Positions 23,811-57,603 of a DNA stretch of 64,000 nucleotides are shown here, one piece after another (position 1 is the stretch's first letter; each line of letters opens with the position of its first letter). A program made the position numbers and the translations under genes. The stretch is from assembly GCA_033558025.1 (NCBI GenBank), contig JAUCEF010000018.1, positions 4,402,001 to 4,466,000 on the forward strand. Reading direction: 5' to 3'. The notes under the pieces are model-generated. The model was given only the letters and a program-made list of their open reading frames with translations, did no database searches and was not told the DNA's origin. The stretch comes from Phytophthora sp. 'mugwort' (lineage: Eukaryota > Oomycota > Peronosporomycetes > Peronosporales > Peronosporaceae).

Positions 23811-26800
23811 TTACATGACAACGCAGGCGTTGTCACCTCCTCCTCCACTGTTCTTCTTCTTGGCTTCTTGATTTCCACTGCCACTATTAGTGCGGAAGGA
23901 AAAGTTGCGGCGTAGATAGCCCCGTAGCGCACGGTGTTCGCTCTTAAGTAGCTGGAACGCGTCCTTCAATACCACGTGGTCCTCGGCCGTAACACTTTCC
24001 TCCATCACGTGTTCTGTAGCAAGTTGCACTCGGAAGGCTGCCTTAGAAACCCTCATAGCTGCAACATAAGCTGACGATCCCTTGAGCGAGTGACTTTCAC
24101 GTCGCAACACGACGAAATCGCGCTTAGAGTACGCATCTTCAATACGGCGCATGAATTCCTCGCTCAAGCCTGCGTATTTTTCCAGTAAGTTGACAAACAA
24201 ACTCTCATTTGCACCGCATTGCTCCACCCCCAGCGAATAGTCGATCGGGTCGCCAGTCGGAATCACAACATCTTCAGGGGCCATCGTCGACGAGTATGCG
24301 CGTGCCGGTTTGTTCACCACAATCGTCGAGCTGGTCGCACTTTCTCCTGCATCCTGCTGCTGATTGTTGCCATCGCTCGATGAAAACGAGTTCGGGGTAG
24401 AGTATGGCGTATGTTCTGTCGCATTCATTGGGTAGATTCCCGCTGCCTTCGCTGCAGCAAACAAGTTCGTGCCAACAATATTCGACGCATTCACCAGATT
24501 TCCAGGACGTGTCGACGGTGCAGTTTTCGACGATTCAGGCGTCTCGCGCTGGGTATCCACTGGTCCGATGGTGCGTCCGACAGTCCCCGAGCTTGTTGAG
24601 TTGCTCTTGCACTCGCTGATAGTCGTAAGCGACATCAGCAACGCCTCGGAGCCCGCTGCCGTTTGAATTCCACTCGGTTGGCCAATCATCATCGGATCTT
24701 CGAGCTCCAAATCCGAGATGGCGCGGTCGAGATCCAGCTTCTCCTCGTGTCTAGAGGCCGCGACCAAGTTGGCAGCATTCTGGCAGGTTTGGCCATCAGC
24801 ATCGACATTGCTACTATCCGCTAAGGGACGAGGACAGTGTTGACCCAGAAAACGCACTCGCATCCACTTCCGAATCGCCTTTCGCAGCTCCGTTTTCGAG
24901 ATTGGTTTGACGATAAATTCATCCATGCCAGCGTCCAGACATTTCTTCCGATCGCCACTCATAGCATACGCTGTGACGCCAATAATGGGGATACGCGGGA
25001 GCTTGTGCTGCTTCTCGAAGACGCGAATATTACGGGTGGATTCATACCCATTCATGATTGGCATCTCGCAGTCCATCAGCACAATATCGTACGAATCATG
25101 ATGCTCCTGGTACATCTGATACGCGTCTAGGCCGTTCGTCTCCCACTGAAGCAAGTGGTTGTCCTCCATGAAGAAGCTCTTGACGACTTCCCAGTTAAAT
25201 TCATTATCTTCCACCACCAAGATGCGAGCATGTTTGGGTACGAGCTCCGACATGGACGCATTGTGTCTTGCACTGCTGGCTGCTAAAGAGGATGCAGCTC
25301 CTGCCTCAGCGACCAGAATCGCCGGGTATTTCTGAATGAGATCATCATCTTCGTCCTCAAGACGACGCACCACAACCGTAAAGAAGAACTCTGAGCCCTC
25401 CCCCAGCTCACTGTCTACGTCAATATCGCCGTCCATCAGCTCCACGAGCTGTTTGCAGATAGCAAGACCCAATCCAGAGCCTGTAGGGTTGTTCTTGCGC
25501 GTACGCTCCAGCTTTGTGAAGAGCGAAAACAATCGCGATTTCTCCTCATCGTCCATACCGACACCGGTATCAATAACTTGGAATAAAAGCTTCACACAAT
25601 GCTTTGGCAGGTCGGGAGACGGCACCATGTTGCATCGAACTGTGATCGATCCCTCGTTCGTGAATTTAATGGCATTTGATAACAAATTGAGCAACACCTG
25701 ACGAAGTCGACTGACGTCACCAATGACGCGCTTTGGAACCTTTGGCGAGCATTCCAATGTTAGTTTGATGTGCTTTTCGCGGGCCTTAAACTTGAAAATC
25801 TCCACCGAATATTCCAATAAATCTTGCATCTGGAACGGATCCGCTGAGATCTCCATATGTCCTGCTTCAATCTTCGACAAGTCGAGGATATCGTTGATTA
25901 AATTCAGCAGCAACGATCCAGAAATGTAGGCAATATGCACATAACGCTCGGGTGTCTTGTCCAGCTTTTGGTCGCGTAGGAGTTCCAGCATCCCCAACAC
26001 ACCGTTCAGAGGAGTTCGTAGCTCGTGACTAAATGAAGCGAGAAAATTCACCTTTGCAGCCTCCATGTGCTTCTTCGCCGTGTAGTCTTGGCCCACTCCA
26101 ATCACACCACGAATGTTACCGTGCATATCTTTCTTACTAGAAGCATTCACAAGAAGCAGCAAGGAAAGTCCGGCAGCGGTCGTCATAGGAAGTTCCATTT
26201 CCTCAACATCAATGCCAATCAGTGCCTGGTTCAGTAGTTTTCGCACTTCGGGGCGATTCTCGGCATTAATAAACGCATCCACCAACGATAGTCCAAGAAC
26301 CGTCGACTTGTGGAAGCCCGTAATTTCCTCAATCTTCTGGTTCCACTCGTTAATGCAGCCAAACGTGTCGACACCAAAGATCGGAGCATTCGCTGTATCA
26401 ATCAATCGAAAGTACTCGTGTTCCTGCGCGATACGATCGGTAATGTCCTGGCCAATACCTACCACACCAACAATATTGCCGTGCATATCATTACGAGGGG
26501 TAGCGTTCAGAAGAATCTCAATGCGCGTGCCGGGGCGTGTTATCAATGGGAACTCGAAGTTCGCAGTCTGGATCCCATTCAGCGCCTTACTGAATACGTC
26601 TGCTACGATAGGTCGGTACTCTGGCGAAATGAACGTCTCTACCAAATTCTCTCCAATCACTTCTGCCGTCGAGTATTTCGTGATCTGCGCAGCCTTCTTG
26701 TTCCAAATGTTCACGCACAGGTTGGCATCCACACCAAAAATTGGAGCATTGGCCGTATCAATCAGGCGCGTGTACTCTTGCTCCTGCACAATGCGATCAG

Positions 26801-29800
26801 TTAAGTCCTGACCGATGCCCACAACGCCCACGATCTCACCGTGCTGGTCAAACCTCGCCGTCGCATTCATACGAATATTTACCGTTCGACCGTTCTTTTT
26901 CTTCAATTCAACATCAAAATTCGATGTCTCGTCACCCTCTAGAGCCTTCCACAAAATAGTTTCCACAGCGTCACGATACTCTTCAGGGATAGCCCAGCTC
27001 ATCAAGTCTTTGCCATCAGCTTCCTCCTTTGAGAATCGCGTCATTTCAGCAGTTTTGTGATTCCATATATTGATCTTGCCCTGTGCATCGACACCAAAGA
27101 TCGGAGCATTTGCCTTCTCAATCAATCGAGCGTACTCTTGTTCCTGTGCGATCCGATCCGTGATATCTTGTCCGATACCTACCATGCCAATCACCGTTCC
27201 GTGCTCATTAAACCGAGGCGTGGCATTCAGTAGAATTTCCACACGTCGACCTGCTTTCGTGACCAATGGGAACTCGAAATTGGCCGTTTCGGTTCCATCC
27301 AGCGCCTTTGACAACACTGCGCCCACAGCTTGACGATAGTCTTCAGTAATGAACTGTTCCACGAGATTCTCGCCCAGTACTTCATCTGTTGAATACTGCA
27401 TAATCTCCGCAGCCTTCTTGTTCCATATATTTACGCGGCCTTCGCTGTCCACTCCGAAGATGGGAGCGTTAGCAGTATCAATCAAACGACTGTACTCTTG
27501 TTCCTGCGCAATACGTTCCGTGATATCCTGGCCGATACTCACCACACCGACAATTTCTCCCAACTCGTTGTACCGCGGCGTGGCATTCAGCAAAATCTCG
27601 ACACGGCGTCCAGACTTGGTGATCAGTGGGAAGTTAAAGTTGGCCGTTTGCACTCCGTTCAGTGCCTGCGAGAGCACCAAGCCCACAGCAGAACGATACC
27701 CCTCCGAGATAAACTCTTGCACCAAGTCCTTTCCAATGACCTCCTCGGCTGGGAACTGCGTGATCTCAGCGGACTTATCATTCCAAATATTGACGAGACC
27801 GGTCATGTCGACACCAAAAATGGGTGCATTGGCTGTGTCAATTAGACGGCTGTACTCCTGCTCTTGCACAATACGCTCCGTGATGTCCTGGCCGATACCG
27901 ACAACGCCCACGATATCACCATGTTGATTGTACCGCGGTGTCGCATTCAGTAAGATATCTACACGTCGGCCAGTCTTCGTAATGAGCGGAAACTCGAAAT
28001 TCGCCGTGCCTTCTCCCTCCATAGCCTTCGACATGACTTCTGACACCCCAGCGCGATAGTCGTGCGGGATAAAGCTCTCAACAAGGCGTGTTCCTCGTGC
28101 CTCCAGTACCGTGTACTCCATGATAGCTACAGCCTTGCGGTTCCAAATATCCACACGTCCGTCCATATCGATACCAAAAATCGGCGCATTGGCTGTATCA
28201 ATCAGTCGAATGTATTCTTCCTCTTGCGCGCGCTGATCAGTAAAGTCTTGTCCAATCCCTACTACGCCAGTGATCTTGCCGCTGTGGTCAAAGCGTGGCG
28301 TCGCGTTCAGTAGAATATCTAACTGTCTTCCACTCTTCGTTACCAAAGGGAACTCGAAATTTGCAGTCTCAATGCCTCCCATCGCCTTCGACAGCACATC
28401 TGCAACAGTGTCACGTGCATGCTCAGCGATAAAGCCAAGAAGGTCTTTGCCAATCGCCTGTACATACGAGTAATCAGTGATCGTGGCCGCCTTCTTATTC
28501 CAAATCGTCACGCGGAACTTCTTGTCCACACCCACAATGGGTGCATTAGCAGTGTCGATGAGACGGCTGTATTCTTGTTCCTGTACGATGCGTTCGGTAA
28601 TGTCCTGGCCAATGCCGACGACACCAACGATGACGCCGGCATGGTTATAACGCGGTGTGGCGTTCAGCAAGATCTCCACTTTCCGGCCATGTTTTGTGAT
28701 CAAAGGGAACTCAAAATTGGCCGTCTCGACCCCTTGGAGCGCCTTCTGGAAGACAGCGGCCACTTCCTCGCGATAGTCTTCGTGGATCAAGAACGAAACC
28801 AAGTCGACACCCATGACTTCGCCTGGCCAGTACTCGCTAATCTGTGCAGCCTTCTTGTTGAAAATGACGACGCATCCTTCCGTGTCAACACCGAAAATAG
28901 GGGCGTTGGCTGAATCCACCAGCTTGCTGTACTCCATCTCGCTCGCATTCCGCGCTGTCACGTCCTGTCCAATGGCCACAATGCGGTTCACACTTGTACC
29001 AGCTCCATCGACACTGACCTGGGGCGTGAGGCTCAGCAATAACTCAACGCGCGCGCCACTGGCGGTCTTCAGCGGCAGTTCGAACTCGGAAACTGACGTG
29101 TTGGTTGATGCAACACGCGCCAGCAGTTCGCCCACGAGAACGCGGAAGTCTTCGTGCACCAGGTCGACGAGCGGCGTGCCCATGACCTGCTCAATGGTGT
29201 AGCCCGTGAGCGCCTCAGCCTTTGGGTTCCATAGAACGATGTGTCCGTCACGATCGAGCTCCACGATGGGGGCGACCGCCTGCTGCGTTACTCGCGCGTA
29301 CTGTAGTTGCCACACGGTCACGTCCTGTCCGATGGCTACGACGTTCAACGCTTTGTCGTCGCTCGCGTCGACTGTCAAGTTTACGAGCAGTTTCACGTTG
29401 TGGCCGAGCTCTGGCGTGTTCAGTTCAATCTCAATGTCGCGCACAGTGGCGTTGACGTCAGCCAGCGCCTGCTCCAGTCCGCGCGTGAGGTCAACCTTCT
29501 TTGAACCTGTCACGAGCTCCGTGACGGGGCGGCCAAGCACGTCCGCGCTCGCGAATCCAGAGAGCTCCGCCAGCTTGTGGTTCCAGAACGTCAGGCAGCC
29601 CGTCCCATCCATGGCCAACGCTGGCGCATTTGCCTCGTTTAGAACGTGAAAGAGTCGAGGAGAGAGGCCCGACGAGTCGCGCGACGACGGGCTCGAGGAG
29701 ATGGCCGGCCGGCGCTCGGCCGCGTCGATGCCGCTGCCACTGCTGCAGTTGCTGTCACGCCTCGAGCGGCGTGTGCCCGCCGTGGCCGTGGCCATAGTCG

Positions 29801-29864: not shown

Positions 29865-31467
29865 CGAAAGTGAGGGATCCGCTTGAGGGCGGTGGCAGAA
29901 CGGCCGGAAACTCGAAAGAAAGGGCGCCACGCGGTGCGTCCCACGGCCGAGAACGGGGCGTGCGGACGAAGGCCTGCCTACCTGCCTGCGCGACGTGCAC
30001 AGTACGAGTTCCGGGGCTTACGAGGCCTTTTCGAGTGTGGCGGAGGAGCTTCTCGTGAGCCTGTCTCGGCTTGAGCCCCCAGGCGGATGTGTAACGTGAC
30101 TGTCCGGCTTCACTTGGCGTTGCTGAACTTCAGGCTTTTAGAGGACGGAGAGTACCGTGCCGAGAGAACAACTAATACAGCTGTGCCGGACTAAACAAGA
30201 CAGGTTGATGACGGTATAATTATAGTCTTGCAGAATCGTTTTTCACATGTTTATGGATAAATTTGGTTTCTTTTAATAGGCATTACAGGTAGTAGTAGTG
30301 AACACGTGAGTGTACATTTAGTATACACCTGATGCAAAGGATATACAGTAGCAGGATATGGGTTGCTGCACGGTGCAGTTTAAGCAAATTACGGTACGCG
30401 AGAGCAAATTGACATGAAATACAATCTAACACTCGCTGCTGACCAATCAAAAGGAGGTGCGCCCCGTCTGCACCTAAAGTTTCGACCAATGACGAACCGA
30501 ACCCTGCTGAAGGGAAGCGTCCGATCGCATTACGCTGGTCATGATGGACACATTCGCGTGCACTGTCTGCCGCTGCGGCGCCATCGATTGCTGCGCGTGG
30601 TGGCTGGCAGCGACATCGCTGCACGCACGCTGAGGTCGCTTCAACTGCTGCGCGTGGAGAGGCCTGACGCGCGGCAACATTTCGCGCAGGATAGACGCTG
30701 CGATTTGATCTTAAATGGACAGTAACACGTCTCTCACTTAAGAGGCTCCGAGGACCTCAGTTAGGTGGCTTCTGAAGCTGTGGCAGCCAGAATCCGCAAC
30801 TTCAGAAGCCTCCTCACAAGCTGTTGCACGTATAATCGTGCTGATCCCCGCAGATCGGCGCGAAGTTAATAACTTCAGCGGTTTTGCAAGGACCGACGTG
30901 AAACATGACGGCACCTGGCGGGGTAAAGCTCGGTCTGCGAAGGCCGTTCATCATCTCGGTACCGGTACGACATGGCTTGATTTCAGCTTGCGATCACATG
31001 CTGCAACTGTGCCAGTCTGTGACCACAGGAAGGCTTCACTTCTCACGCAGAGTGGCATGTAAACAACCCATCGGCTGACGAGGCCGAACAGACGAATGCG
31101 GGAGCTGACTCAGTCTCACACCACGAAATACCAAGGCGCCTCCTTCGAACATGTATTGCTAGCTTTTTCCACTGTGTTTCTGCTTGGGGCCCACTTCGGC
31201 AGTCGGTCCCACTTTTCCTGTCTCCTCTCCGCTCGGTCTCCGTCCTCCGGCCCCACCGAATTCGAATTTAGCCTCGCACGACAATCGCAGTGAATGCAGT
31301 GCAAGCGCTCGGCTCGACGGAGCACGGCGACGGACGGTTGCGTGTCGTGGACCTTTCTCATGCGCGAGTCTTCATCGTGGTGAGATGAGAGATGCGCACG
31401 CCAGAAGGGCGCATGCACGCTGCCGTCGCCGCCTGCACGGGGACATCAACAACAAAACCGTGGGTCT
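29865..31467. other. Intergenic, no gene seen
   Basis: The interval holds the upstream region of the 10-PAS kinase and the downstream region of the Rab18 gene. The open frames present lack recognisable domains and exon structure. A pyrimidine-rich TCACTTT, similar to the oomycete initiator core YCAYTYY, is immediately upstream of the kinase ATG (about 29868-29874 on the minus strand). It is so close to the ATG that it may not be the true start site. Confidence 0.4.
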
Positions 31468-32490
<1,023 letters not shown>

Positions 32491-43761: not shown

Positions 43762-46700
43762 ATGGGGAAACATAAGAAACCCCCGCCGGGGATGGCCACG
43801 GGGCCGCCCCCAACACCCCCGCTCGACAATAACGCGGTCGAGACGAAGCAGAGCGCCATGAAGGATCCGTCTCCGAGCCTCGGGTCGCAGGCGGAAGCGC
43901 TGGCGCAGCTGCTGCTGGACGCTAACGCGCCCGCCGTCGGCGTGGACGTGGCGGGTCGCGTGACAGTCTGGAACAAGCGCCTGGTCGACATCACGGGCTT
44001 CCGCGCCGAGCGCGTGTTAGGTCACCCCATCTCCGACTTTGTCTACGGTGCGCAGCGCAAGGGCGAGATCATGGAGACTATCGAAGCCTGCATTGAGGAC
44101 AGGCGGTCGGTGCTGGAGCTGCGCATCCCGCTGCTCACGACCACGGGCCGCAACGCCCAAGTGTTGACCAATATGACGCCGCTGCTGGCTGAGGACGGCA
44201 TGTGCGTGGGCGCTTACGGTGTCGGCCAGGACGTGACTGAGTGGGCCATCCAAGAAAAGCAGTACGCCACCGTCATAATGCAGGCCAACGCGCCCATCAT
44301 CGAGCTTGACAGGGAGGGCAACATCACAGTCTGGAACTCCAAGACTGAGTCTATGACGGGATACGCTAGTGTGGACATGGTGGGCGAGCCGCTTCTGCCC
44401 GTCGTGGATCGGAACTTCCGGAAGATCGTGTCGGAGAAGATCGACCAAGCACTCTCAGGAATCGCAGGCGCAGACTTTGAGTTGCCGCTGGTGACTGCGC
44501 GAGGATCCAGAGTCGAGATTGTGCTGTGTTTAACGCCGAGATTCGATACCCTAAGGTCAGTGGTGGGAGTTGTTGCTATCGGACAGGATGTGACGGAGAG
44601 AAACACAAAGGAGATGGAATACAGGAAGCTTATCGAGACGGCCAATGCACCCATTTTTGGCGTGGATACACAAGGACGAGTGGTGATTTTCAACACCAAG
44701 GCGTCGCAGATCAGTGAATACTCGCCTGAAGAAGTGATGGGCGTGGATCTGGTCGACACTCTTATTTCAGAAGATGTCCGGTCCGAAGTGGCTGCTGTAT
44801 TTCAGAAAGCATTTCAAGGAATCGAGACGGCAAACTTTGAGTTCCCATTGGTCACGAAGACTGGCCGAAAAGTGGAGATCCTGCTGAATGCCACACCACG
44901 ATACGATCACACAGGACAGCTCGTGGGTGTCGTCGGGATTGGTCAGGATATAACCGACCGTATTATCCAGGAGAAGGAGTACAGCCGACTGATCGACACC
45001 GCCAACGCCCCGATCTTTGGTGTGGATTGCAACTTCGAAGTGATCATCTGGAATAAAAAGGCAGCATCTATTACAGAGTACACAAACGAAGACACCATCG
45101 GCGAGACAATTTTCAACTTTATATCCGAAGACTATCGTGATGCGGTTGGTGAGGTCCTATCGAGAGCTATGGAGGGCGAAGGGACAGCAAACTTTGATTT
45201 CCCATTGATCACGAAGAGTGGACGGCGATTGGATATTCTGCTAAACGCAACACCAAAGTACGACCATTTTGGGAACATTTGCGGTGCCGTGGGAATTGGC
45301 CAGGACATCACAGACAGACGTGCTCAAGAGCAGGAATACACACGCCTCATTGATACCGCGAACGCGCCTATTTTCGGTGTGGATGAAAATGGGTGTGTAA
45401 ATACGTGGAACCGGAAAGCTGCTGACACTACACAGTACTCGAACGAAGAGGTCCTTGGGGTGAATTTGGTCAAAAACTTCATCCCGGACGACTTCCAGGA
45501 GGCAGTGTGGACAGTGCTATCTCAAGCGCTAGAAGGGCAAGAAACTGCCAACTTTGAATTCCCCCTTATTACAAAGGACGGTCGTCGCGTAGAGATTTTG
45601 CTGAACGCCACCCCGCGCTACAATGAGAAGGGCGTTGTGATTGGCGTTGTTGGGATCGGTCAGGATATTACCGTGCGCATGGCTCAAGAAAAGGAAACCA
45701 ACCGACTTATCCACTCGGCAAACGCTCCGATTTTTGGAGTAGATCAGGCTGGTCGAGTGAATATTTGGAATCTAAAGGTGGCAGAAATCACCCAGTTTTC
45801 ATCCGAAGAAATTATGGGTAAAGATCTGGTAAATCGGTTCGTAGCCGAAGACCATCGTGAGTCAGTGGGGCTATTGCTTCAGAAAGCTCTCCAAGGAGAG
45901 CAGACTGGCAACTTCGACTTCCCTCTCATCACTAAAACAGGACGGCGAGTCGAAATCTTGCTGAATGCCACACCTAGATATGACGAGCTGGGACAGATTT
46001 TCGGTGTGATGGGAATAGGCCAAGACATCACGGAACGTATTGCTCAAGAGCAGGAGTACATCCGCTTGATCGATACTGCCAATGCCCCCATCTTTGGTGT
46101 CGATAGCGAAGGTCGTGTTAATATTTGGAACAAGAAGGCTGCTGAGATCATGCAGTACACGACGGATGCAGTGATGGGTGAGAAACTGGTGGAGAAGTAC
46201 ATTACGAAGGACTACCAGGAGGCTGTGAGCAACGTGTTGTCTGAGGCCCTGGACGGCGTCGAAACGGCAAACTTCGAGTTCCCACTGATCACTAAAGCTG
46301 GTCGACGTGTAGAGATCTTACTGAATGCCACACCTCGATACAACGAGCACGGCGCTGTAATTGGCATGGTCGGTATCGGCCAGGATATTACAGACCGTAT
46401 TGCACAAGAGCAAGAGTATATGAGGCTGATTGATACGGCAAATGCTCCGATTTTCGGCGTAGATATCAATGGGCGTGTGAATATCTGGAACAGAAAGGCG
46501 GCCGATACAACGAAGTACACAAATGCAGAAGTTTTGGGTAAGGACCTGGTAGCTGAGTTCATTTCGGAGGAGTACAAGGTACCTGTTCGGTGCGTGTTGG
46601 AGAAGGCGTTCGAAGATGTTGAGACTGCAAATTTTGAGTTCCCGTTGATTACGAAGGCCGGTCGACGTGTAGAGATTTTGCTGAATGCAACTCCTCGCTA

Positions 46701-49700
46701 CAATGAACAGGGTGAAGTAATGGGAATGGTTGGTATTGGCCAAGACATCACCGTGAGAATGGCGCAGGAGAAAGAAAAGAACCGGATGATTCACTCAGCC
46801 AATGCTCCGATCTTTGGTGTCGACCAGGACGGACTTGTAAACATTTGGAATCTGAAGGTAGCTGAGATTACGCAGTTCTCGTCCGAGGAAGTGATGGGGC
46901 AAGATCTGGTACACCGTTTTGTTGCGGAAGACCACCGTGACGAGGTCAGGTTTAATCTACAAAAAGCCCTTCAAGGAGAGCCAACTGGTAACTTCGATTT
47001 TCCCCTCATCACTAAAACCGGGCGACGAGTTGAAATTCTGCTCAATGCGACACCTCGGTACGATGAGGTAGGGCAGATTTTCGGTGTAACCGGAATCGGC
47101 CAAGACATCACTGAGCGTATCGCACAAGAACAGGAGTACATCCGTTTGATCGACACTGCCAACGCTCCGATCTTTGGAGTTGACTCTGAAGGCCGAGTGA
47201 ATATCTGGAACAAGAAGGCAGCTGAAATCATGCAGTACACGACGGATGCAGTGATGGGTGAGAAACTGGTGGAGAAGTACATTACGAAGGACTACCAGGA
47301 GGCTGTGAGCAACGTGTTGTCTGAGGCACTGGACGGCGTCGAAACGGCAAACTTCGAGTTCCCACTGATCACTAAAGCTGGTCGACGTGTAGAGATCTTA
47401 CTGAATGCCACACCTCGATACAACGAGCACGGCGCTGTGATCGGCATGGTCGGTATCGGCCAGGATATCACAGACCGGATTGCTCAAGAGCAGGAGTACA
47501 TGCGGCTGATTGACACTGCAAATGCCCCGATCTTTGGTGTGGATATTAATGGACGTGTGAACATCTGGAATCGAAAGGCTGCTGACATCATGCAGTACAC
47601 GAACGAGGACGTTCTGGGCAAGGACCTGGTTGCGGAGTTCATTTCAGAAGAGTACAAGGTGCCTGTGCGTAGTGTTTTAGAAAAGGCGTTCGAAGGCGTT
47701 GAGACCGCTAACTTCGAATTTCCACTAATTACGAGAGCCGGTCGACGTGTTGAAATCTTGCTGAATGCGACACCGCGGTACAATGAGCGCGGAGAAGTCA
47801 TGGGCATGGTCGGTATCGGTCAGGATATCACGGAACGTATAGCCCAAGAACAGGAGCATAGTCGAATGATTGATACGGCGAATGCTCCGATCTTTGGTGT
47901 TGATACTGATGGGCGAGTCAACATCTGGAATCGGAAGGCGGCAGACATTATGCAATACACCAATGAGGATGTCCTTGGCAAGAACTTGGTTGAGCAATTT
48001 ATCTCGGAGGAATACCGAGTTCCAGTTCGAAGTGTTCTCGAGAAAGCGTTCAAGGGAGTGGAAACAGCCAATTTCGAATTCCCGTTGATCACGAAGGCTG
48101 GTCGCCGCGTCGAAATTCTGCTGAACGCAACACCTCGTTACAATGAACGTGGGGAAGTCATGGGTATGGTGGGTATCGGTCAGGATATCACGGAGCGTAT
48201 AGCTCAGGAACAAGAGTACAGCCGTCTGATCGACACGGCCAACGCTCCGATCTTCGGCGTGGATATAAACGGCCGCGTGAACATCTGGAACCGCAAGGCT
48301 GCCGACATCATGCAGTATACAAACGAGGACGTTCTGGACAAGGACCTGGTAGCCGAGTTTATCTCGGAGGAGTACAAAGTACCCGTTCGCAGTGTGCTCG
48401 AGAAGGCGTTTGAGGGGGTGGAGACTGCGAACTTCGAGTTCCCACTAATCACGAAGGCTGGTCGACGGGTGGAAATCCTGCTGAACGCCACTCCGCGCTA
48501 TAATGAGCATGGCGAGGTTATGGGAATGGTGGGTATTGGCCAGGATATCACGGAGCGTATCGCTCAGGAACAAGAGTACACACGCTTAATTGATACGGCC
48601 AACGCCCCGATTTTCGGTGTGGATATTAACGGACATGTGAACATTTGGAATCGGAAGGCCGCAGACATTATGCAGTATACGAACAAAGACGTGTTGGGCA
48701 AGGACCTGGTTGCGGAGTTCATTTCGAATGAGTACAAGGTGCCTGTGCGCAGCGTTCTGGAGAAGGCTTTCGAAGGTATCGAGACGGCCAATTTCGAATT
48801 CCCGTTGATCACGAAAGCTGGTCGCCGCGTCGAAATTCTGCTGAACGCAACACCTCGTTACAATGAACGTGGGGAAGTCATGGGTATGGTGGGTATCGGT
48901 CAGGATATCACGGAGCGTATAGCTCAAGAACAAGAGTACAGCCGTCTGATCGACACGGCCAACGCTCCGATCTTCGGCGTGGATATAAACGGCCGCGTGA
49001 ACATCTGGAACCGCAAGGCTGCCGACATCATGCAGTATACAAACGAGGACGTTCTGGACAAGGACCTGGTAGCCGAGTTTATCTCGGAGGAGTACAAAGT
49101 ACCCGTTCGCAGTGTGCTCGAGAAGGCGTTTGAGGGGGTGGAGACTGCGAACTTCGAGTTCCCACTAATCACGAAGGCTGGTCGCCGGGTGGAAATCCTG
49201 CTGAACGCCACTCCGCGCTATAATGAGCATGGCGAGGTTATGGGAATGGTGGGTATTGGCCAGGATATCACGGAGCGTATCGCTCAGGAACAAGAGTACA
49301 CACGCTTAATTGATACGGCCAACGCCCCGATTTTCGGTGTGGATATTAACGGACATGTGAACATTTGGAATCGGAAGGCCGCAGACATTATGCAGTATAC
49401 GAACAAAGACGTGTTGGGCAAGGACCTGGTTGCGGAGTTCATTTCGAATGAGTACAAGGTGCCTGTGCGCAGCGTTCTGGAGAAGGCTTTCGAAGGTATC
49501 GAGACGGCCAATTTCGAATTCCCGTTGATCACGAAAGCTGGTCGCCGCGTCGAAATTCTGCTGAACGCAACACCTCGTTACAATGAACGTGGGGAAGTCA
49601 TGGGTATGGTGGGTATCGGTCAGGATATCACGGAGCGTATAGCTCAAGAACAAGAGTACAGCCGTCTGATCGACACGGCCAACGCTCCGATCTTCGGCGT

Positions 49701-52700
49701 GGATATAAACGGCCGCGTGAACATCTGGAACCGCAAGGCTGCCGACATCATGCAGTATACAAACGAGGACGTTCTGGACAAGGACCTGGTAGCCGAGTTT
49801 ATCTCGGAGGAGTACAAAGTACCCGTTCGCAGTGTGCTCGAGAAGGCGTTTGAGGGGGTGGAGACTGCGAACTTCGAGTTCCCACTAATCACGAAGGCTG
49901 GTCGACGGGTGGAAATCCTGCTGAACGCCACTCCGCGCTATAATGAGCATGGCGAGGTTATGGGAATGGTGGGTATTGGCCAGGATATCACGGAGCGTAT
50001 CGCTCAGGAACAAGAGTACACACGCTTAATTGATACGGCCAACGCCCCGATTTTCGGTGTGGATATTAACGGACATGTGAACATTTGGAATCGGAAGGCC
50101 GCAGACATTATGCAGTATACGAACAAAGACGTGTTGGGCAAGGACCTGGTTGCGGAGTTCATTTCGAATGAGTACAAGGTGCCTGTGCGCAGCGTTCTGG
50201 AGAAGGCTTTCGAAGGTATCGAGACGGCCAATTTCGAATTCCCGTTGATCACGAAAGCTGGTCGCCGCGTCGAAATTCTGCTGAACGCAACACCTCGTTA
50301 CAATGAACGTGGGGAAGTCATGGGTATGGTGGGTATCGGTCAGGATATCACGGAGCGTATAGCTCAAGAACAAGAGTACAGCCGTCTGATCGACACGGCC
50401 AACGCTCCGATCTTCGGCGTGGATATAAACGGCCGCGTGAACATCTGGAACCGCAAGGCTGCCGACATCATGCAGTATACAAACGAGGACGTTCTGGACA
50501 AGGACCTGGTAGCCGAGTTTATCTCGGAGGAGTACAAAGTACCCGTTCGCAGTGTGCTCGAGAAGGCGTTTGAGGGGGTGGAGACTGCGAACTTCGAGTT
50601 CCCACTAATCACGAAGGCTGGTCGACGTGTTGAGATTTTGCTGAACGCCACTCCGCGGTACAATGAGCATGGCGAAGTGAAGGGTATGGTTGGAATTGGC
50701 CAGGACATCACGGAGCGCATTGCTCAGGAGCAGGAATACAGCCGTCTGATTGATACGGCTAATGCCCCGATCTTCGGTGTAGATACAAACATGCGTATCA
50801 ATATTTTCAACCGTAAAGCTCAGCAGATTACCAACTTTTCTTCCGAAGAAGTGGTGGGTGAAATGTATGTGGAAACTATTATTTCACCGGAATTCAAGAC
50901 TGTTACTCACGACATCATGACCGAAGCGCTCAAGGGAAATGAGACGGCCAGTTTCGAGTTAGCACTTACCACCAAGACCGGCCGTAAGGTAAACATTTTA
51001 TTGAACGCCACGGCTCGCTTTGACCAGCATGGGCAGATTGTCGGTGCCGTGGGTATCGGTCAGGATATCACCGATCGCATTGCTCAGGAGCAAGAGTACA
51101 CGAGATTGATCGACTCGGCCAACGCTCCGATCTTCGGTGTCGACGTGAATGGCTGTGTGAACATCTGGAATAAAAAGGCTGCGGAAATCACGCAGTACAC
51201 ACCGAACGATGTGATGGGTGAAAACCTGGTGGAGAAATTCATCACGGAAGACTATCGTGACGCTGTTGGTCTTGTTCTGTCCAAGGCGTGTGCAGGAATG
51301 GAGACCGCCAACTTCGAGTTCCCGCTGATGACTAAGGCCGGTCGTCGCGTGGAGATTCTGCTGAATGCTACGTCTCGTTTCAACGAGATCGGTGAGGTTA
51401 TGGGAGTGGTGGGCATCGGTCAGGATATCACCGAACGTATTGCCCAGGAACAGGAGTACACTCGCCTCATCGATACTGCTAATGCTCCGATTTTCGGTGT
51501 TGATATCAACGGTCGAGTGAACATTTGGAACCGGAAGGCTGCCGAAACAACCCAGTACATGAACGCAGAGGTTCTTGGCAAAGACTTGGTGGCTGAGTTC
51601 ATCTCGACGGAGTATAAGGTCCCAGTTCGCAGTGTGTTGGAGAAGGCATTTGAAGGCGTAGAGACGGCGAATTTCGAGTTTCCACTTATCACGAAGGCAG
51701 GTCGACGGGTGGAAATCCTGCTGAACGCCACTCCGCGCTATAATGAGCATGGCGAGGTTATGGGAATGGTGGGTATTGGCCAGGATATCACGGAGCGTAT
51801 CGCTCAGGAACAAGAGTACACACGCTTAATTGATACGGCCAACGCCCCGATTTTCGGTGTGGATATTAACGGACATGTGAACATTTGGAATCGGAAGGCC
51901 GCAGACATTATGCAGTATACGAACAAAGACGTGTTGGGCAAGGACCTGGTTGCGGAGTTCATTTCGAATGAGTACAAGGTGCCTGTGCGCAGCGTTCTGG
52001 AGAAGGCTTTCGAAGGTATCGAGACGGCCAATTTCGAATTCCCGTTGATCACGAAAGCTGGTCGCCGCGTCGAAATTCTGCTGAACGCAACACCTCGTTA
52101 CAATGAACGTGGGGAAGTCATGGGTATGGTGGGTATCGGTCAGGATATCACGGAGCGTATAGCTCAAGAACAAGAGTACAGCCGTCTGATCGACACGGCC
52201 AACGCTCCGATCTTCGGCGTGGATATAAACGGCCGCGTGAACATCTGGAACCGCAAGGCTGCCGACATCATGCAGTATACAAACGAGGACGTTCTGGACA
52301 AGGACCTGGTAGCCGAGTTTATCTCGGAGGAGTACAAAGTACCCGTTCGCAGTGTGCTCGAGAAGGCGTTTGAGGGGGTGGAGACTGCGAACTTCGAGTT
52401 CCCACTAATCACGAAGGCTGGTCGACGTGTTGAGATTTTGCTGAACGCCACTCCGCGGTACAATGAGCATGGCGAAGTGAAGGGTATGGTTGGAATTGGC
52501 CAGGACATCACGGAGCGCATTGCTCAGGAGCAGGAATACAGCCGTCTGATTGATACGGCTAATGCCCCGATCTTCGGTGTAGATACAAACATGCGTATCA
52601 ATATTTTCAACCGTAAAGCTCAGCAGATTACCAACTTTTCTTCCGAAGAAGTGGTGGGTGAAATGTATGTGGAAACTATTATTTCACCGGAATTCAAGAC

Positions 52701-55700
52701 TGTTACTCACGACATCATGACCGAAGCGCTCAAGGGAAATGAGACGGCCAGTTTCGAGTTAGCACTTACCACCAAGACCGGCCGTAAGGTAAACATTTTA
52801 TTGAACGCCACGGCTCGCTTTGACCAGCATGGGCAGATTGTCGGTGTCGTAGGTATCGGTCAGGATATCACCGATCGCATTGCTCAGGAGCAAGAGTACA
52901 CGAGATTGATCGACTCGGCCAACGCTCCGATCTTCGGTGTCGACGTGAATGGCTGTGTGAACATCTGGAATAAAAAGGCTGCGGAAATCACGCAGTACAC
53001 ACCGAACGATGTGATGGGTGAAAACCTGGTGGAGAAATTCATCACGGAAGACTATCGTGACGCTGTTGGTCTTGTTCTGTCCAAGGCGTGTGCAGGAATG
53101 GAGACCGCCAACTTCGAGTTCCCGCTGATGACTAAGGCCGGTCGTCGCGTGGAGATTCTGCTGAATGCTACGTCTCGTTTCAACGAGATCGGTGAGGTTA
53201 TGGGAGTGGTGGGCATCGGTCAGGATATCACCGAACGTATTGCCCAGGAACAGGAGTACACTCGCCTCATCGATACTGCTAATGCTCCGATTTTCGGTGT
53301 TGATATCAACGGTCGAGTGAACATTTGGAACCGGAAGGCTGCCGAAACAACCCAGTACATGAACGCAGAGGTTCTTGGCAAAGACTTGGTGGCTGAGTTC
53401 ATCTCGACGGAGTATAAGGTCCCAGTTCGCAGTGTGTTGGAGAAGGCATTTGAAGGCGTAGAGACGGCGAATTTCGAGTTTCCACTTATCACGAAGGCAG
53501 GTCGACGGGTGGAAATCCTGCTGAACGCCACTCCGCGCTATAATGAGCATGGCGAGGTTATGGGAATGGTGGGTATTGGCCAGGATATCACGGAGCGTAT
53601 CGCTCAGGAACAAGAGTACACACGCTTAATTGATACGGCCAACGCCCCGATTTTCGGTGTGGATATTAACGGACATGTGAACATTTGGAATCGGAAGGCC
53701 GCAGACATTATGCAGTATACGAACAAAGACGTGTTGGGCAAGGACCTGGTTGCGGAGTTCATTTCGAATGAGTACAAGGTGCCTGTGCGCAGCGTTCTGG
53801 AGAAGGCTTTCGAAGGTATCGAGACGGCCAATTTCGAATTCCCGTTGATCACGAAAGCTGGTCGCCGCGTCGAAATTCTGCTGAACGCAACACCTCGTTA
53901 CAATGAACGTGGGGAAGTCATGGGTATGGTGGGTATCGGTCAGGATATCACGGAGCGTATAGCTCAAGAACAAGAGTACAGCCGTCTGATCGACACGGCC
54001 AACGCTCCGATCTTCGGCGTGGATATAAACGGCCGCGTGAACATCTGGAACCGCAAGGCTGCCGACATCATGCAGTATACAAACGAGGACGTTCTGGACA
54101 AGGACCTGGTAGCCGAGTTTATCTCGGAGGAGTACAAAGTACCCGTTCGCAGTGTGCTCGAGAAGGCGTTTGAGGGGGTGGAGACTGCGAACTTCGAGTT
54201 CCCACTAATCACGAAGGCTGGTCGACGTGTTGAGATTTTGCTGAACGCCACTCCGCGGTACAATGAGCATGGCGAAGTGAAGGGTATGGTTGGAATTGGC
54301 CAGGACATCACGGAGCGCATTGCTCAGGAGCAGGAATACAGCCGCCTGATTGATACGGCTAATGCCCCGATTTTCGGTGTAGATACCAATATGTGTGTCA
54401 ATATCTGGAACAGAAAGGCCGCTCAGATCACGAATTACTCGATTGAAGAAGTAATGGGAGAGAACCTTGTGGAGACGTTTATTTCTCCTGAATTCCGCCC
54501 TATCGTAGCTGAAGTACTGTCGCAAGCTCTAACCGGAGTTGAAACTGCAAATTTTGAGTTTCCATTGATTACCCGTCCGGGCACGAGAATCGAGATCTTG
54601 CTCAATGCGACCCCGCGATATGACTTGAACGGTAATATTGTTGGTGTCGTGGGTATCGGCCAGGATATTACGGATCGCATCGCTCAAGAGCACGAGTACT
54701 TCCGTCTGATTGATACTGCGAACGCTCCGATCTTTGGTATTGATACAAACGGTCGCATTAATGAGTGGAACCAGAAGATTGAGGAGATTACAGGCTACCA
54801 CAAATCGAGCGTACTGGGTCTGTCGTTGGTGCATACATTCATCACCCCAGAGTGCAGACAACAAGTGCGCCAGCTACTGAACCAAGCGCTGATCGGTATT
54901 GACGTTGGCGAGATGGAACTTCCGATGACGACGAAGCGTGGCGTGTTCCTGTTGCTCCTTGTAAATGCGTCGAGTAAGAAGGACATGCACGGAAACATCC
55001 GTGGTGTCATCGGCGTGGGACAAGACTACACTGCCAGGAAGCACATGGAGGCTGCTAAGGTGAATTTCTTGGCCTCGTTCAGCCACGAACTGCGAACGCC
55101 GCTGAACGGTGTGCTGGGTATGCTGGAACTTTTGAAGGAGCAGCCCCTAGATAAATCCATCGAGAGGTATGTGCACATGGCATACGTGTCGGGTTCCCTT
55201 CTTCTGAACCTGATCAACGACATCCTCGACTTGTCAAAGATTGAGGCTGGGCATCTAGAAATTTCGACGGCACCATTCCAGATGCACGATTTGCTGGACT
55301 ATTCGATCGAAATCTTTAAGTTTAAGGCTCGAGAACGTGGACTGAAACTTTGCCTGAAGTGCGGTGACAACGTGCCAAAGGCTGTGATTGGTGACGTTGT
55401 GCGGCTTCGTCAAGTCTTGTTGAACTTGTTGTCGAACGCAATTAAGTTCACGAACGAAGGTTCAATTACGGTGGCATGTAGCGTGGTGCATTCTCCGGAT
55501 TTGCCATCTCAATTCAAGAAGTTGCTGTTTCAAGTTATTGACACGGGAATTGGCATGGACGCCGAGGAGAAAATGCGCCTCTTTTCTCTGTTTACGAAGC
55601 TGGAGCGTACTCGACAGAATAATCCAACTGGTTCTGGCCTGGGTCTTGCTATTTGTAAGCAGCTCGCGGAGCTAATGGACGGATCCATTGATGTTGACAG

Positions 55701-57603
55701 TGAATTGGGCGTTGGCAGCAACTTTTTCTTTACGGTGATAGTGAGACTGATTGACGAGGTCGACCCTAAGCACGCTTATTACTCGTCCGAGGACTTTTTG
55801 GATCCGTCGACAGCGTTGCTTTCATCAGATGGAGCTGTGCGTGCTGCTGACGGTGAAAATGCTTCAGTGCGAGTGGAGGTTCCGAAGCAGGCGCGTATTC
55901 TGGTTGTTGAGGATAACGAGTTTAACTGGGAAGTGGTGAAATGCTTCCTTCAGCAAGATGACCATCTCCTGCAGTGGGAGGTCAATGGCCGCGACGCTGT
56001 GAAGGCCTATAGCGAAAACCACACAGAGTTTGACCTGATCTTTATGGATTGCGAAATGCCTATCATGGACGGTTATACTGCTACTAATGCAATCCGCGAA
56101 TTTGAACGCGAGCACGGCCTTTCGCGCATCCCGATTCTTGGATTAACGGCGTATGCGATGAGTGGTGATCGACAGAAGTGTCTCGACTGCGGTATGGATG
56201 AATTCATGGTGAAACCTATATCAAAGCTGAGTCTCCGCAAGGCTATCCGGCAATGGATGCGGATCCGCTATCTGGGCCAGAAGAATTTCGCATTGGGAGC
56301 AGTGGCAAAGGCACCTGGTTCCACGGGGCCTCTGACCCTGCGAAACGTGCCTCCTCCTGCTGCTAAAAGCCCCATGAGAATTCCTGCGCCATCACCAGGA
56401 GCCCCCACTCCGATGCCATCATTTGAAAGTGACCTCGAGGATGTTACGCTCATGGGTGCGACATCGACTGCTAGACTTGCGCCTGCTTCTCGTCATATGC
56501 AACAGCTGGATCTTGCACAGGCAATCTCGAATCTGGAGCTCGATGACCCCATGTCGATTGGGCTTCAAAGTGGCCGAGCTGTTCGGACCGCTACACCAAC
56601 AACGTCAATCTTCAGCTTGGGTCCCTCCGTTAACAACATTTCAAGACCTACAAGCTCGAACGATTTGCCAGATGTGCTCAGATTATCCAGGAATACGAGC
56701 GGTACCTCAACAACGGGCCCATCCGAGCCGGAGCTGCCAACATCCGAGACGTCGACTACGTTGCCTTATGTCAAGACTCCTTTCATTGGGGTAACTAATA
56801 GCCCATTTCAGAATGGAGCGCGCTCCTCATTGCCAACAAACCCCACGCTTTGGAGCCACCCGCCGTTTAAGAAGAGGGATCTACCGACAGAAGAACCACA
56901 TCCCTGGTGTGGTCTCGTGCCGAAGAAGAAGGTCAGCTTCCACGAAGACCTCGACTATGGGTCTTCCCATCCGAGCAGAGGAGGTCACAGTAGCAGTAGT
57001 GGCAGCGGCATGCCTTCTGTTCTGGAGCGCATGGAAACTGGCAGCTCCATGGAAGATGATACACCAATAGGAGCTCCCTCGATTCATGAGACTGCTGTCT
57101 CCCATTCAATCGATCCGATGAGCATCGAGATCCCAGAAGGAGACCCCGTCAATTACAGTCTGGGAGTGGATCAATGCGGAGGTCACGAAGAACTCTTCTT
57201 GACCCTTTTGGAAAAGTTTGCTACATCGTCGGAGGTGATCACATCCCGGGTTATCGACGCTCACGAGCGCAACGACTTCGTGACTGCCTGCCGCGAAGCT
57301 CACTCGCTCAAGGGGTCGTCTGCCTACGTAGCTGCTCTCCGTGTGTCCAAGTGCGCCTTCCGTGCCCAAGTCGCGTACGAACACTTGATGGCGCAGCAGG
57401 CAAACGGCGAAGGCTCGGACACTTTAGCTGCGAAGCAGATTGTCGATGACTCAGTCGAGCTGCTCACCAAAGAGCAGAGGCTTCTACGGGGATATCTCCG
57501 ACGCAATTTCGAGTTTAAAATTCAAGCGGGACCGTCTCAAGTGACAGCAAGTCAAGAGCCTACTGTCCAAGACAAACCAACTGGCCCATGTTGCGTTATG
57601 TGA
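43762..57603 (+). CDS. Giant hybrid histidine kinase with 31 tandem PAS domains and C-terminal CaaX box, 4613 aa
   Basis: One uninterrupted exon. The ATG at 43762 (context CAACCATGG) is preferred over a TTG five codons earlier. A Pro-rich N-terminus of about 50 residues precedes 31 PAS/PAC units; from unit 4 (near 44980) to unit 31 (near 54700) they start every 360 bp. Each has ANAPIFGVD, a WN at the PAS core, ETANFEFPLIT, EILLNATPR and GQDIT followed by a helical linker. Then HisKA with FSHELRTPLNG (His3775), HATPase (LLNLLSNAIKFTNEG, DTGIGMD, GSGLGLAICK), receiver with Asp4096 in FMDCEMPIMDG, a Ser/Pro/Thr-rich linker, and HPt with His4514 in AHSLKGSS. No membrane helix is visible. The C-terminus is CCVM, a CaaX box (Cys4610). 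The predicted activity is ATP-dependent His autophosphorylation with internal His-Asp-His relay. The ligand is unknown. Confidence 0.95.
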   Translation: MGKHKKPPPGMATGPPPTPPLDNNAVETKQSAMKDPSPSLGSQAEALAQLLLDANAPAVGVDVAGRVTVWNKRLVDITGFRAERVLGHPISDFVYGAQRKGEIMETIEACIEDRRSVLELRIPLLTTTGRNAQVLTNMTPLLAEDGMCVGAYGVGQDVTEWAIQEKQYATVIMQANAPIIELDREGNITVWNSKTESMTGYASVDMVGEPLLPVVDRNFRKIVSEKIDQALSGIAGADFELPLVTARGSRVEIVLCLTPRFDTLRSVVGVVAIGQDVTERNTKEMEYRKLIETANAPIFGVDTQGRVVIFNTKASQISEYSPEEVMGVDLVDTLISEDVRSEVAAVFQKAFQGIETANFEFPLVTKTGRKVEILLNATPRYDHTGQLVGVVGIGQDITDRIIQEKEYSRLIDTANAPIFGVDCNFEVIIWNKKAASITEYTNEDTIGETIFNFISEDYRDAVGEVLSRAMEGEGTANFDFPLITKSGRRLDILLNATPKYDHFGNICGAVGIGQDITDRRAQEQEYTRLIDTANAPIFGVDENGCVNTWNRKAADTTQYSNEEVLGVNLVKNFIPDDFQEAVWTVLSQALEGQETANFEFPLITKDGRRVEILLNATPRYNEKGVVIGVVGIGQDITVRMAQEKETNRLIHSANAPIFGVDQAGRVNIWNLKVAEITQFSSEEIMGKDLVNRFVAEDHRESVGLLLQKALQGEQTGNFDFPLITKTGRRVEILLNATPRYDELGQIFGVMGIGQDITERIAQEQEYIRLIDTANAPIFGVDSEGRVNIWNKKAAEIMQYTTDAVMGEKLVEKYITKDYQEAVSNVLSEALDGVETANFEFPLITKAGRRVEILLNATPRYNEHGAVIGMVGIGQDITDRIAQEQEYMRLIDTANAPIFGVDINGRVNIWNRKAADTTKYTNAEVLGKDLVAEFISEEYKVPVRCVLEKAFEDVETANFEFPLITKAGRRVEILLNATPRYNEQGEVMGMVGIGQDITVRMAQEKEKNRMIHSANAPIFGVDQDGLVNIWNLKVAEITQFSSEEVMGQDLVHRFVAEDHRDEVRFNLQKALQGEPTGNFDFPLITKTGRRVEILLNATPRYDEVGQIFGVTGIGQDITERIAQEQEYIRLIDTANAPIFGVDSEGRVNIWNKKAAEIMQYTTDAVMGEKLVEKYITKDYQEAVSNVLSEALDGVETANFEFPLITKAGRRVEILLNATPRYNEHGAVIGMVGIGQDITDRIAQEQEYMRLIDTANAPIFGVDINGRVNIWNRKAADIMQYTNEDVLGKDLVAEFISEEYKVPVRSVLEKAFEGVETANFEFPLITRAGRRVEILLNATPRYNERGEVMGMVGIGQDITERIAQEQEHSRMIDTANAPIFGVDTDGRVNIWNRKAADIMQYTNEDVLGKNLVEQFISEEYRVPVRSVLEKAFKGVETANFEFPLITKAGRRVEILLNATPRYNERGEVMGMVGIGQDITERIAQEQEYSRLIDTANAPIFGVDINGRVNIWNRKAADIMQYTNEDVLDKDLVAEFISEEYKVPVRSVLEKAFEGVETANFEFPLITKAGRRVEILLNATPRYNEHGEVMGMVGIGQDITERIAQEQEYTRLIDTANAPIFGVDINGHVNIWNRKAADIMQYTNKDVLGKDLVAEFISNEYKVPVRSVLEKAFEGIETANFEFPLITKAGRRVEILLNATPRYNERGEVMGMVGIGQDITERIAQEQEYSRLIDTANAPIFGVDINGRVNIWNRKAADIMQYTNEDVLDKDLVAEFISEEYKVPVRSVLEKAFEGVETANFEFPLITKAGRRVEILLNATPRYNEHGEVMGMVGIGQDITERIAQEQEYTRLIDTANAPIFGVDINGHVNIWNRKAADIMQYTNKDVLGKDLVAEFISNEYKVPVRSVLEKAFEGIETANFEFPLITKAGRRVEILLNATPRYNERGEVMGMVGIGQDITERIAQEQEYSRLIDTANAPIFGVDINGRVNIWNRKAADIMQYTNEDVLDKDLVAEFISEEYKVPVRSVLEKAFEGVETANFEFPLITKAGRRVEILLNATPRYNEHGEVMGMVGIGQDITERIAQEQEYTRLIDTANAPIFGVDINGHVNIWNRKAADIMQYTNKDVLGKDLVAEFISNEYKVPVRSVLEKAFEGIETANFEFPLITKAGRRVEILLNATPRYNERGEVMGMVGIGQDITERIAQEQEYSRLIDTANAPIFGVDINGRVNIWNRKAADIMQYTNEDVLDKDLVAEFISEEYKVPVRSVLEKAFEGVETANFEFPLITKAGRRVEILLNATPRYNEHGEVKGMVGIGQDITERIAQEQEYSRLIDTANAPIFGVDTNMRINIFNRKAQQITNFSSEEVVGEMYVETIISPEFKTVTHDIMTEALKGNETASFELALTTKTGRKVNILLNATARFDQHGQIVGAVGIGQDITDRIAQEQEYTRLIDSANAPIFGVDVNGCVNIWNKKAAEITQYTPNDVMGENLVEKFITEDYRDAVGLVLSKACAGMETANFEFPLMTKAGRRVEILLNATSRFNEIGEVMGVVGIGQDITERIAQEQEYTRLIDTANAPIFGVDINGRVNIWNRKAAETTQYMNAEVLGKDLVAEFISTEYKVPVRSVLEKAFEGVETANFEFPLITKAGRRVEILLNATPRYNEHGEVMGMVGIGQDITERIAQEQEYTRLIDTANAPIFGVDINGHVNIWNRKAADIMQYTNKDVLGKDLVAEFISNEYKVPVRSVLEKAFEGIETANFEFPLITKAGRRVEILLNATPRYNERGEVMGMVGIGQDITERIAQEQEYSRLIDTANAPIFGVDINGRVNIWNRKAADIMQYTNEDVLDKDLVAEFISEEYKVPVRSVLEKAFEGVETANFEFPLITKAGRRVEILLNATPRYNEHGEVKGMVGIGQDITERIAQEQEYSRLIDTANAPIFGVDTNMRINIFNRKAQQITNFSSEEVVGEMYVETIISPEFKTVTHDIMTEALKGNETASFELALTTKTGRKVNILLNATARFDQHGQIVGVVGIGQDITDRIAQEQEYTRLIDSANAPIFGVDVNGCVNIWNKKAAEITQYTPNDVMGENLVEKFITEDYRDAVGLVLSKACAGMETANFEFPLMTKAGRRVEILLNATSRFNEIGEVMGVVGIGQDITERIAQEQEYTRLIDTANAPIFGVDINGRVNIWNRKAAETTQYMNAEVLGKDLVAEFISTEYKVPVRSVLEKAFEGVETANFEFPLITKAGRRVEILLNATPRYNEHGEVMGMVGIGQDITERIAQEQEYTRLIDTANAPIFGVDINGHVNIWNRKAADIMQYTNKDVLGKDLVAEFISNEYKVPVRSVLEKAFEGIETANFEFPLITKAGRRVEILLNATPRYNERGEVMGMVGIGQDITERIAQEQEYSRLIDTANAPIFGVDINGRVNIWNRKAADIMQYTNEDVLDKDLVAEFISEEYKVPVRSVLEKAFEGVETANFEFPLITKAGRRVEILLNATPRYNEHGEVKGMVGIGQDITERIAQEQEYSRLIDTANAPIFGVDTNMCVNIWNRKAAQITNYSIEEVMGENLVETFISPEFRPIVAEVLSQALTGVETANFEFPLITRPGTRIEILLNATPRYDLNGNIVGVVGIGQDITDRIAQEHEYFRLIDTANAPIFGIDTNGRINEWNQKIEEITGYHKSSVLGLSLVHTFITPECRQQVRQLLNQALIGIDVGEMELPMTTKRGVFLLLLVNASSKKDMHGNIRGVIGVGQDYTARKHMEAAKVNFLASFSHELRTPLNGVLGMLELLKEQPLDKSIERYVHMAYVSGSLLLNLINDILDLSKIEAGHLEISTAPFQMHDLLDYSIEIFKFKARERGLKLCLKCGDNVPKAVIGDVVRLRQVLLNLLSNAIKFTNEGSITVACSVVHSPDLPSQFKKLLFQVIDTGIGMDAEEKMRLFSLFTKLERTRQNNPTGSGLGLAICKQLAELMDGSIDVDSELGVGSNFFFTVIVRLIDEVDPKHAYYSSEDFLDPSTALLSSDGAVRAADGENASVRVEVPKQARILVVEDNEFNWEVVKCFLQQDDHLLQWEVNGRDAVKAYSENHTEFDLIFMDCEMPIMDGYTATNAIREFEREHGLSRIPILGLTAYAMSGDRQKCLDCGMDEFMVKPISKLSLRKAIRQWMRIRYLGQKNFALGAVAKAPGSTGPLTLRNVPPPAAKSPMRIPAPSPGAPTPMPSFESDLEDVTLMGATSTARLAPASRHMQQLDLAQAISNLELDDPMSIGLQSGRAVRTATPTTSIFSLGPSVNNISRPTSSNDLPDVLRLSRNTSGTSTTGPSEPELPTSETSTTLPYVKTPFIGVTNSPFQNGARSSLPTNPTLWSHPPFKKRDLPTEEPHPWCGLVPKKKVSFHEDLDYGSSHPSRGGHSSSSGSGMPSVLERMETGSSMEDDTPIGAPSIHETAVSHSIDPMSIEIPEGDPVNYSLGVDQCGGHEELFLTLLEKFATSSEVITSRVIDAHERNDFVTACREAHSLKGSSAYVAALRVSKCAFRAQVAYEHLMAQQANGEGSDTLAAKQIVDDSVELLTKEQRLLRGYLRRNFEFKIQAGPSQVTASQEPTVQDKPTGPCCVM
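45700..47859 (+). repeat. Older 1080-bp (three-PAS) duplication
   Basis: Units 6-7-8 (45700-46779) and 9-10-11 (46780-47859) show the same order of unit types: the first of each triplet has the unusual LIHSANAPIFGVDQ/MIHSANAPIFGVDQ with WNLKVAEITQF and TGNFDFPLIT, followed by a SEGRVN unit and an INGRVN unit. Substitutions are scattered, so this duplication predates the near-identical ones further on. Confidence 0.85.
48100..50630 (+). repeat. 720-bp (two-PAS) near-identical tandem repeat, about 3.5 copies
   Basis: Blocks starting near 48100, 48820 and 49540, with a partial fourth, alternate an INGRVN unit and an INGHVN unit. Line-by-line comparison by eye shows very few changes, for example gtcgacggg against gtcgccggg and agctcagg against agctcaag. 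These copies are recent or homogenised. Confidence 0.9.
49900..54345 (+). repeat. 1800-bp (five-PAS) near-identical tandem repeat, about 2.5 copies
   Basis: The segment from about 49900 to 51699 recurs at 51700-53499, and about 845 bp of it recurs again from 53500. By eye the first two copies differ at only two positions, near 51047-51051 against 52847-52851. It nests on top of the 720-bp repeat and includes a distinctive TNMRINIF unit and a VNGCVN unit. Confidence 0.9.

Follow-up and report, generated by a model that had tools for sequence, protein, structure and literature searches.

The window, a stretch of 64,000 nucleotides from the genome of Phytophthora sp. 'mugwort', contains two large genes that we refer to as histidine kinases A and B. 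Their features are listed below, with positions counted from the first letter of the window:

23811..29864, minus strand: histidine kinase A, open reading frame, 2017 aa from the first ATG
25860..26054, minus strand: HisKA domain of kinase A with the phospho-acceptor His (76.3 bits)
24870..25223, minus strand: receiver domain of kinase A (86 bits)
23943..24188, minus strand: HPt domain of kinase A (Pfam; the match stops ~40 residues ahead of the CaaX Cys)
23814..23825, minus strand: CaaX codons of kinase A in the genomic DNA, TGC GTT GTC ATG (C-V-V-M), with TAA next
43762..57603, plus strand: histidine kinase B, open reading frame, 4613 aa, a single uninterrupted frame of 13.8 kb
55057..55251, plus strand: HisKA domain of kinase B (74.7 bits)
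55897..56250, plus strand: receiver domain of kinase B (76.4 bits)
57205..57405, plus strand: HPt domain of kinase B (the match covers profile positions 2-63 of 84)
57589..57600, plus strand: CaaX codons of kinase B in the genomic DNA, TGT TGC GTT ATG (C-C-V-M), with TGA next

In translation, the tail of kinase A reads ...GGGGDNACVVM and that of kinase B ...KPTGPCCVM, and the codons of both boxes directly abut genomic stops (TAA and TGA, respectively), which bears out the ends CVVM and CCVM given in a preliminary description of this DNA. The same description spoke of two kinases, and that part needs to be amended: both have the box, but a third HisKA kinase lies just outside the window. Profile searching of the 86.3 Mb genome in six frames (with scores for the best candidates only) gives 3 HisKA matches, all on the contig of the window. 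The third belongs to kinase C, whose HisKA domain is found 14 kb and whose stop codon ~12 kb beyond the window end, and its final residues are TNGPCGIM with the box CGIM. All histidine kinases found in the genome (3/3) thus end in a CaaX box whose X is Met. Kinase C was out of sight when the first two boxes were noticed because it lies beyond the window, and it therefore serves as an out-of-sample test that the pattern passed. At the same locus, an open reading frame for a Ras-like GTPase (57711-58331, plus strand) starts 107 bp downstream of kinase B and ends VKHVTR with no C-terminal Cys. This pair of kinase and Ras-like GTPase is fused in two gene models of Phytophthora kernoviae (P0069 and P0070), from which we conclude that the gene order is conserved and that the fusions are probably annotation errors.

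Beyond their tails, kinase A comprises 10 PAS stretches and kinase B 31, each together with HisKA, HATPase_c, receiver, and HPt domains (all Pfam matches above cut-offs), and kinase C has at least 15 PAS stretches in a sequence that is cut at the N-terminus (Pfam). The motifs SHELRTPL, GSGLGLAI, EDNEFN, and HSLKG are present in all three proteins. By their domain set of HisKA, HATPase_c, receiver, and HPt these are hybrid histidine kinases with predicted phosphotransfer activity. They fit the known class of oomycete PAS-array histidine kinases—characterized by unusually long PAS arrays and no transmembrane domain (PMC3019232)—in their tandem PAS domains, their lack of a transmembrane helix, and their clustered genes. 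The kinases of P. infestans described there are built in the same way, with N-terminal tandem PAS domains, a kinase and receiver part, no transmembrane domain, and three clustered genes, and have 10, 15, and 21 PAS stretches versus the 31 of kinase B. Several multi-PAS blocks of kinase B appear near-identical by eye, which suggests that its internal PAS amplification is recent. The best 19-residue Kyte-Doolittle means of 1.37 (kinase A), 1.34 (kinase B), and 1.49 (kinase C) leave no candidate membrane helix, and the best means near the N-terminus (-0.33 for kinase A and 0.91 for kinase B) show no strongly hydrophobic N-terminus. For kinases A and B, this hydropathy is consistent with the earlier assertion that signal peptides and membrane helices are absent. 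The N-terminus of kinase B (MGKHKK...) was considered for myristoylation as well and judged unsuitable by the general rules for this modification.

Relatives of these kinases were collected using the HPt-tail part of kinase A as query, which yielded 67, and the stretch from kinase to tail of a Saprolegnia relative, for which 7995 candidates were scored and the best 120 of 6219 were used. Together with kinases A, B, and C, both searches (the second limited to these best 120 of 6219) gave an oomycete clade set of 91 proteins, several of which were assigned to oomycetes by similarity. When this set was scanned for C-terminal CaaX as had been proposed, 79 of the 91 proteins were found to end in Cys-x-x-Met among the matches listed. 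The box is even more consistent in rows that have HisKA, HPt, and the (R)NF motif after the HPt, 67 of 68 of which end in it (the one exception is a fused model with an internal box), and after thinning of 70 rows to 51 (<90% identity in the final 40 residues) Cys-x-x-Met is found in 49 of these 51. Its carriers include Phytophthora, Nothophytophthora, Peronospora, Bremia, Plasmopara, Hyaloperonospora, and Peronosclerospora, and further Pythium, Globisporangium, Lagenidium, Albugo, Aphanomyces, Saprolegnia, and Thraustotheca; P0027 from Pythium oligandrum ends in the very CVVM of kinase A. Random loss of the terminal Cys among orthologs, which had been named as an outcome that would speak against a function of the box, was looked for and is not the case. 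The alignment of P0022 reaches the reference C-terminus (...NACSVM) and is followed by 198 extra residues with EF-hand Pfam domains, so that we regard it as a fused gene model with the box inside. P0069 and P0070 have the Ras-like GTPase in place of the kinase tail, and homology stops 35 residues short of the end of the references. In nine other boxless rows (P0080, P0084-P0090, and P0104), homology breaks off 36 to 232 residues short of that end, with P0084 nearest to a complete HPt and the least certain of them. Judged from these alignments, none of the 12 boxless rows is a clean loss of the box; they are fused or tail-less models.

A Cys at position -4 was seen in 0/46 proteins of an oomycete receiver-Ser/Thr kinase family (see below), 0/35 other receiver matches, and 0/51 non-oomycete kinases among the best 120 of 6219 matches. 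The latter two are weak controls because they are mostly bacterial-looking, where CaaX is unexpected, and thus just show how seldom chance produces such an end. Eukaryotic rows from outside the oomycetes within the same best 120 of 6219 (P0103, P0105, P0106, and P0127, whose sequence stops within its receiver, plus P0119 of unsure origin) have no box, and with this coverage more distant eukaryotic kinases may carry one. The close non-oomycete kinases P0103 and P0105 have a strongly basic stretch near their end (KKKRNKKK and KKKRNKKN, respectively) that could possibly be an alternative route to the membrane.

Protein farnesyltransferase (FTase) reads little of the a1 residue of a CaaX box but does read a2 and X (PMC3017772, PMC10320760). 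The end of N-Ras is CVVM as had been stated at the outset, and it is modified by FTase along with several other boxes that end in Met (PMC11152559); an FTase crystal structure also contains CVVM as its peptide (PMC11121372). When FTase is missing, CIIM, CVIM, and other Met-ending boxes become geranylgeranylated and CVVM shows no shift (PMC11152559), so that a geranylgeranyl group may be possible for some of the kinase tails. By their letters, the tails of the kinases conform to the substrate rule of FTase, with the Cys fourth from the end, an aliphatic-type a2, and an X in the FTase set. Our six-frame search of the genome found a gene for FTase beta (E 1.3e-72 to PDB 1jcq_B), with a match that runs across one in-frame TGA—presumably an intron read through by this kind of search. 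The genome also has GGTase-I beta, Rab-GGTase beta, three alpha-type (PPTA) loci, one Rce1-like protease gene (identified at the level of the Pfam family), and an ICMT gene. Two loci were matched in a search for prenyl carriers with PF05351, and the better one looks like UNC119, so that we do not claim it as PDE6-delta.

How strictly the box has been kept can be read from a tree of the kinase core with 65 tips from the 79 box-bearing rows, from which the outgroups P0103 and P0119 were pruned before counting. This tree was made by a quick method and has a total length of 12.4 changes per column, with support below 80 for 26 of the 64 inner branches. The fewest changes that it needs are 0 for the Cys at -4 and 0 for the Met at -1, zeros that should be weighed alongside the full count of 79 of 91, as the rows were picked for having the box. 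Position a2 (-2) requires 19 changes among the letters V, I, L, and T only, and a1 (-3) requires 31 changes and takes 12 different letters, R, Q, and N among them. Further upstream there are 7 changes at -5, 9 at -6, and 18 to 42 at each position from -7 to -30, in line with the original impression of a retained box on otherwise divergent tails, which are variable and by eye rich in Gly, Ser, Asn, and Lys. On this footprint, Cys-x-x-Met is kept by selection. The view that the two boxes of the window arose by chance or simply persist from a recent gene duplication finds some footing in the arrangement of the three kinase genes, since their clustering within a span of ~61 kb on one contig makes a tandem origin likely. 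However, the paralogs have reached or come close to saturation at synonymous sites (pS 0.74-0.82, at 74-84% amino-acid identity over the core), and therefore the shared box is not a remnant of recent copying; the tails have otherwise diverged, and the box is unchanged through Peronosporales, Pythium-type genera, Albugo, and Saprolegniales. A Cys-x-x-Met end is expected by chance in ~1.5-2e-4 per protein given the kinases' own composition, with the paralogs being non-independent. We thus reject chance and recent duplication on the tail-change counts and the synonymous saturation, and consider their probability negligible. The box might instead be another C-terminal motif that functions without prenylation, such as a PDZ-type ligand or a Cys with a role in redox chemistry or metal binding. 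A conserved extreme C-terminus does not by itself identify the reader of a motif, and an end like V-V-M is compatible with the pattern of hydrophobic C-terminal ligands. Such a ligand or redox motif is not expected to fix -4 and -1 yet leave -3 free, though, and across the 65 rows Cys is always at -4 and X always Met with a free a1 and only V, I, L, or T at a2, as in the rules of FTase, the prenylation enzymes being encoded in the same genome. We therefore find this explanation very improbable and read the pattern of conservation, with its loose a1 and constrained a2 and X, as one of farnesylation.

Overall, it seems very likely to us that the oomycete kinases are farnesylated and that their HPt end is held at a membrane from where it feeds a separate receiver. 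FTase would attach a farnesyl group to the Cys at the fourth-last residue of the kinase, Rce1 would then cut off the last three residues, and ICMT would methylate the newly formed C-terminus. In this way, a variable and probably flexible tether would hold the HPt end of the kinase at the membrane. The idea of a functional lipid-anchored phosphorelay kinase is therefore supported at the level of sequence by the box, its conservation, and the enzyme genes, from which we infer lipidation and membrane location. A single farnesyl is a weak anchor, and most tails give no clear sign of another membrane signal: 62 of 65 have no Cys between -5 and -40 (3 of 65 do), and only 22 of 79 carry a pair of neighboring basic residues among the last 16 ahead of the box. 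Histidine kinases of this class dimerise. A kinase dimer would present two farnesyls, perhaps sufficient for stable binding without a second lipid, and we suggest this avidity as a reason why one farnesyl per chain might suffice.

To which membrane the lipid would direct these kinases is a separate question, and the plasma membrane, the nuclear envelope, and internal membranes are all possible sites. That the box is prenylated but serves the nuclear envelope, an internal membrane, or a prenyl-dependent partner instead of the plasma membrane is an alternative that we take seriously while considering it the less probable one. CSIM and CAIM are lamin boxes (PMC11152559), and a canonical lamin is present in oomycetes (PMC5630835). 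The tails of kinases B and C also have neither a basic cluster nor a second upstream Cys, whereas kinase A has a KKK patch ahead of its box. A basic patch in this place is more typical of the plasma membrane, following the logic of K-Ras4B. It appears unlikely that the lipid chiefly delivers the kinase to the zoospore flagellum, similar to other farnesylated ciliary proteins. In favor of such a role, zoospores and cysts express Ps130388, a P. sojae kinase with this architecture whose deletion has effects on both zoospore chemotaxis and cyst germination (PMC10072465). Yet the box is kept in the downy mildews Hyaloperonospora brassicae, Bremia lactucae, Peronospora farinosa, Peronospora belbahrii, and Peronosclerospora sorghi, and several of these genera are not known to form zoospores. 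We give less weight to a role only at the flagellum since downy mildews retain the box.

PAS-array kinases as such are known already, and what appears to be new is the clade-wide farnesylation signal and the lipid-anchored variant of these proteins that it predicts. The main text on the P. infestans kinome makes no mention of CaaX or prenyl, of receiver, CheY, or phosphorelay, and where it notes the absence of transmembrane domains it gives no other link to a membrane (PMC3019232). Ps130388 of P. sojae resembles the kinases described here with multiple PAS domains, a kinase-receiver core (called TorS), and an HPt, and the main text of that study likewise has no mention of CaaX or prenyl (PMC10072465). 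Among matching titles and abstract openings, in a body of literature that mostly leaves out subscription journals, no prenylated histidine kinase is described, which agrees with the initial remark that a lipid-anchored histidine kinase was not known from previous work. The closest parallels come from unrelated proteins. GRK-like proteins of Phytophthora and Albugo carry prenylation motifs and, together with GRK1/GRK7, offer examples of a signalling kinase that is membrane-held by a C-terminal prenyl as proposed here (PMC3307776). These proteins differ in that they have the fold and chemistry of Ser/Thr kinases, unrelated to His-Asp phosphorelay. Ras proteins carry a second membrane signal, either palmitate or a polybasic stretch. 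They are small GTPases, and such second signals are mostly not evident in the kinases, but the tetrapeptides of N-Ras (CVVM) and K-Ras4B (CVIM) are identical to some of the kinase boxes and modified by FTase (PMC11152559). KinesinCaaX of Trypanosoma brucei is similarly a lineage-specific protist protein with a farnesylated CVIM end, though a motor protein and not a sensor kinase (PMC3206815).

Since nearly all giant oomycete histidine kinases end in a farnesyl signal, they are probably tethered to a membrane by lipid. Histidine kinases are generally regarded as either transmembrane or soluble. If our interpretation is correct, this would be the first class of prenylated histidine kinases, in which a bacterial phosphorelay is fused with a Ras-type lipid anchor, and a clade with such a farnesyl anchor would extend eukaryotic two-component signalling by a third kind. 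The soluble-looking oomycete kinases would then be membrane-tethered sensors, which would constrain the place of both PAS ligands and output. It also makes the location of these kinases and the phosphate acceptor of their HPt directly testable.

Regarding this acceptor, the PAS array would sense a cytosolic cue and phosphate would move from His to Asp to the HPt-His inside the kinase. The membrane-held HPt would then donate the phosphate to the receiver of another protein, for which the oomycete receiver-Ser/Thr kinase is the most likely candidate. All 3 HPt matches in the genome are on kinases A, B, and C, and our profile search of the genome found none beyond them. Of five receiver matches, three are on the kinases and two elsewhere:

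L032:1979-4675 (G000:C5), minus strand: protein of 898 aa with a receiver at the N-terminus, a Ser/Thr kinase, and DUF547 (Pfam)
L011 (G000:C13:100717-101037): weaker receiver match in the C13 protein (46.4 bits)

The receiver-Ser/Thr kinase occurs in Phytophthora and downy mildews as well as in Pythium, Albugo, and Saprolegniales (46 of 81 matches, some rows of which have no species label), and its place in the genome content makes it the likely output of the kinases' HPt. For the broadest version of this model, in which every oomycete histidine kinase as sampled would be farnesylated and the phosphorelay would run from a lipid-held HPt into one receiver-Ser/Thr kinase, we see about even chances. 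The C13 protein, for which Pfam matched the receiver only, appears hydrolase-like further on by eye, and its receiver match lies within a long open frame ~5 kb from the Rce1-like gene.
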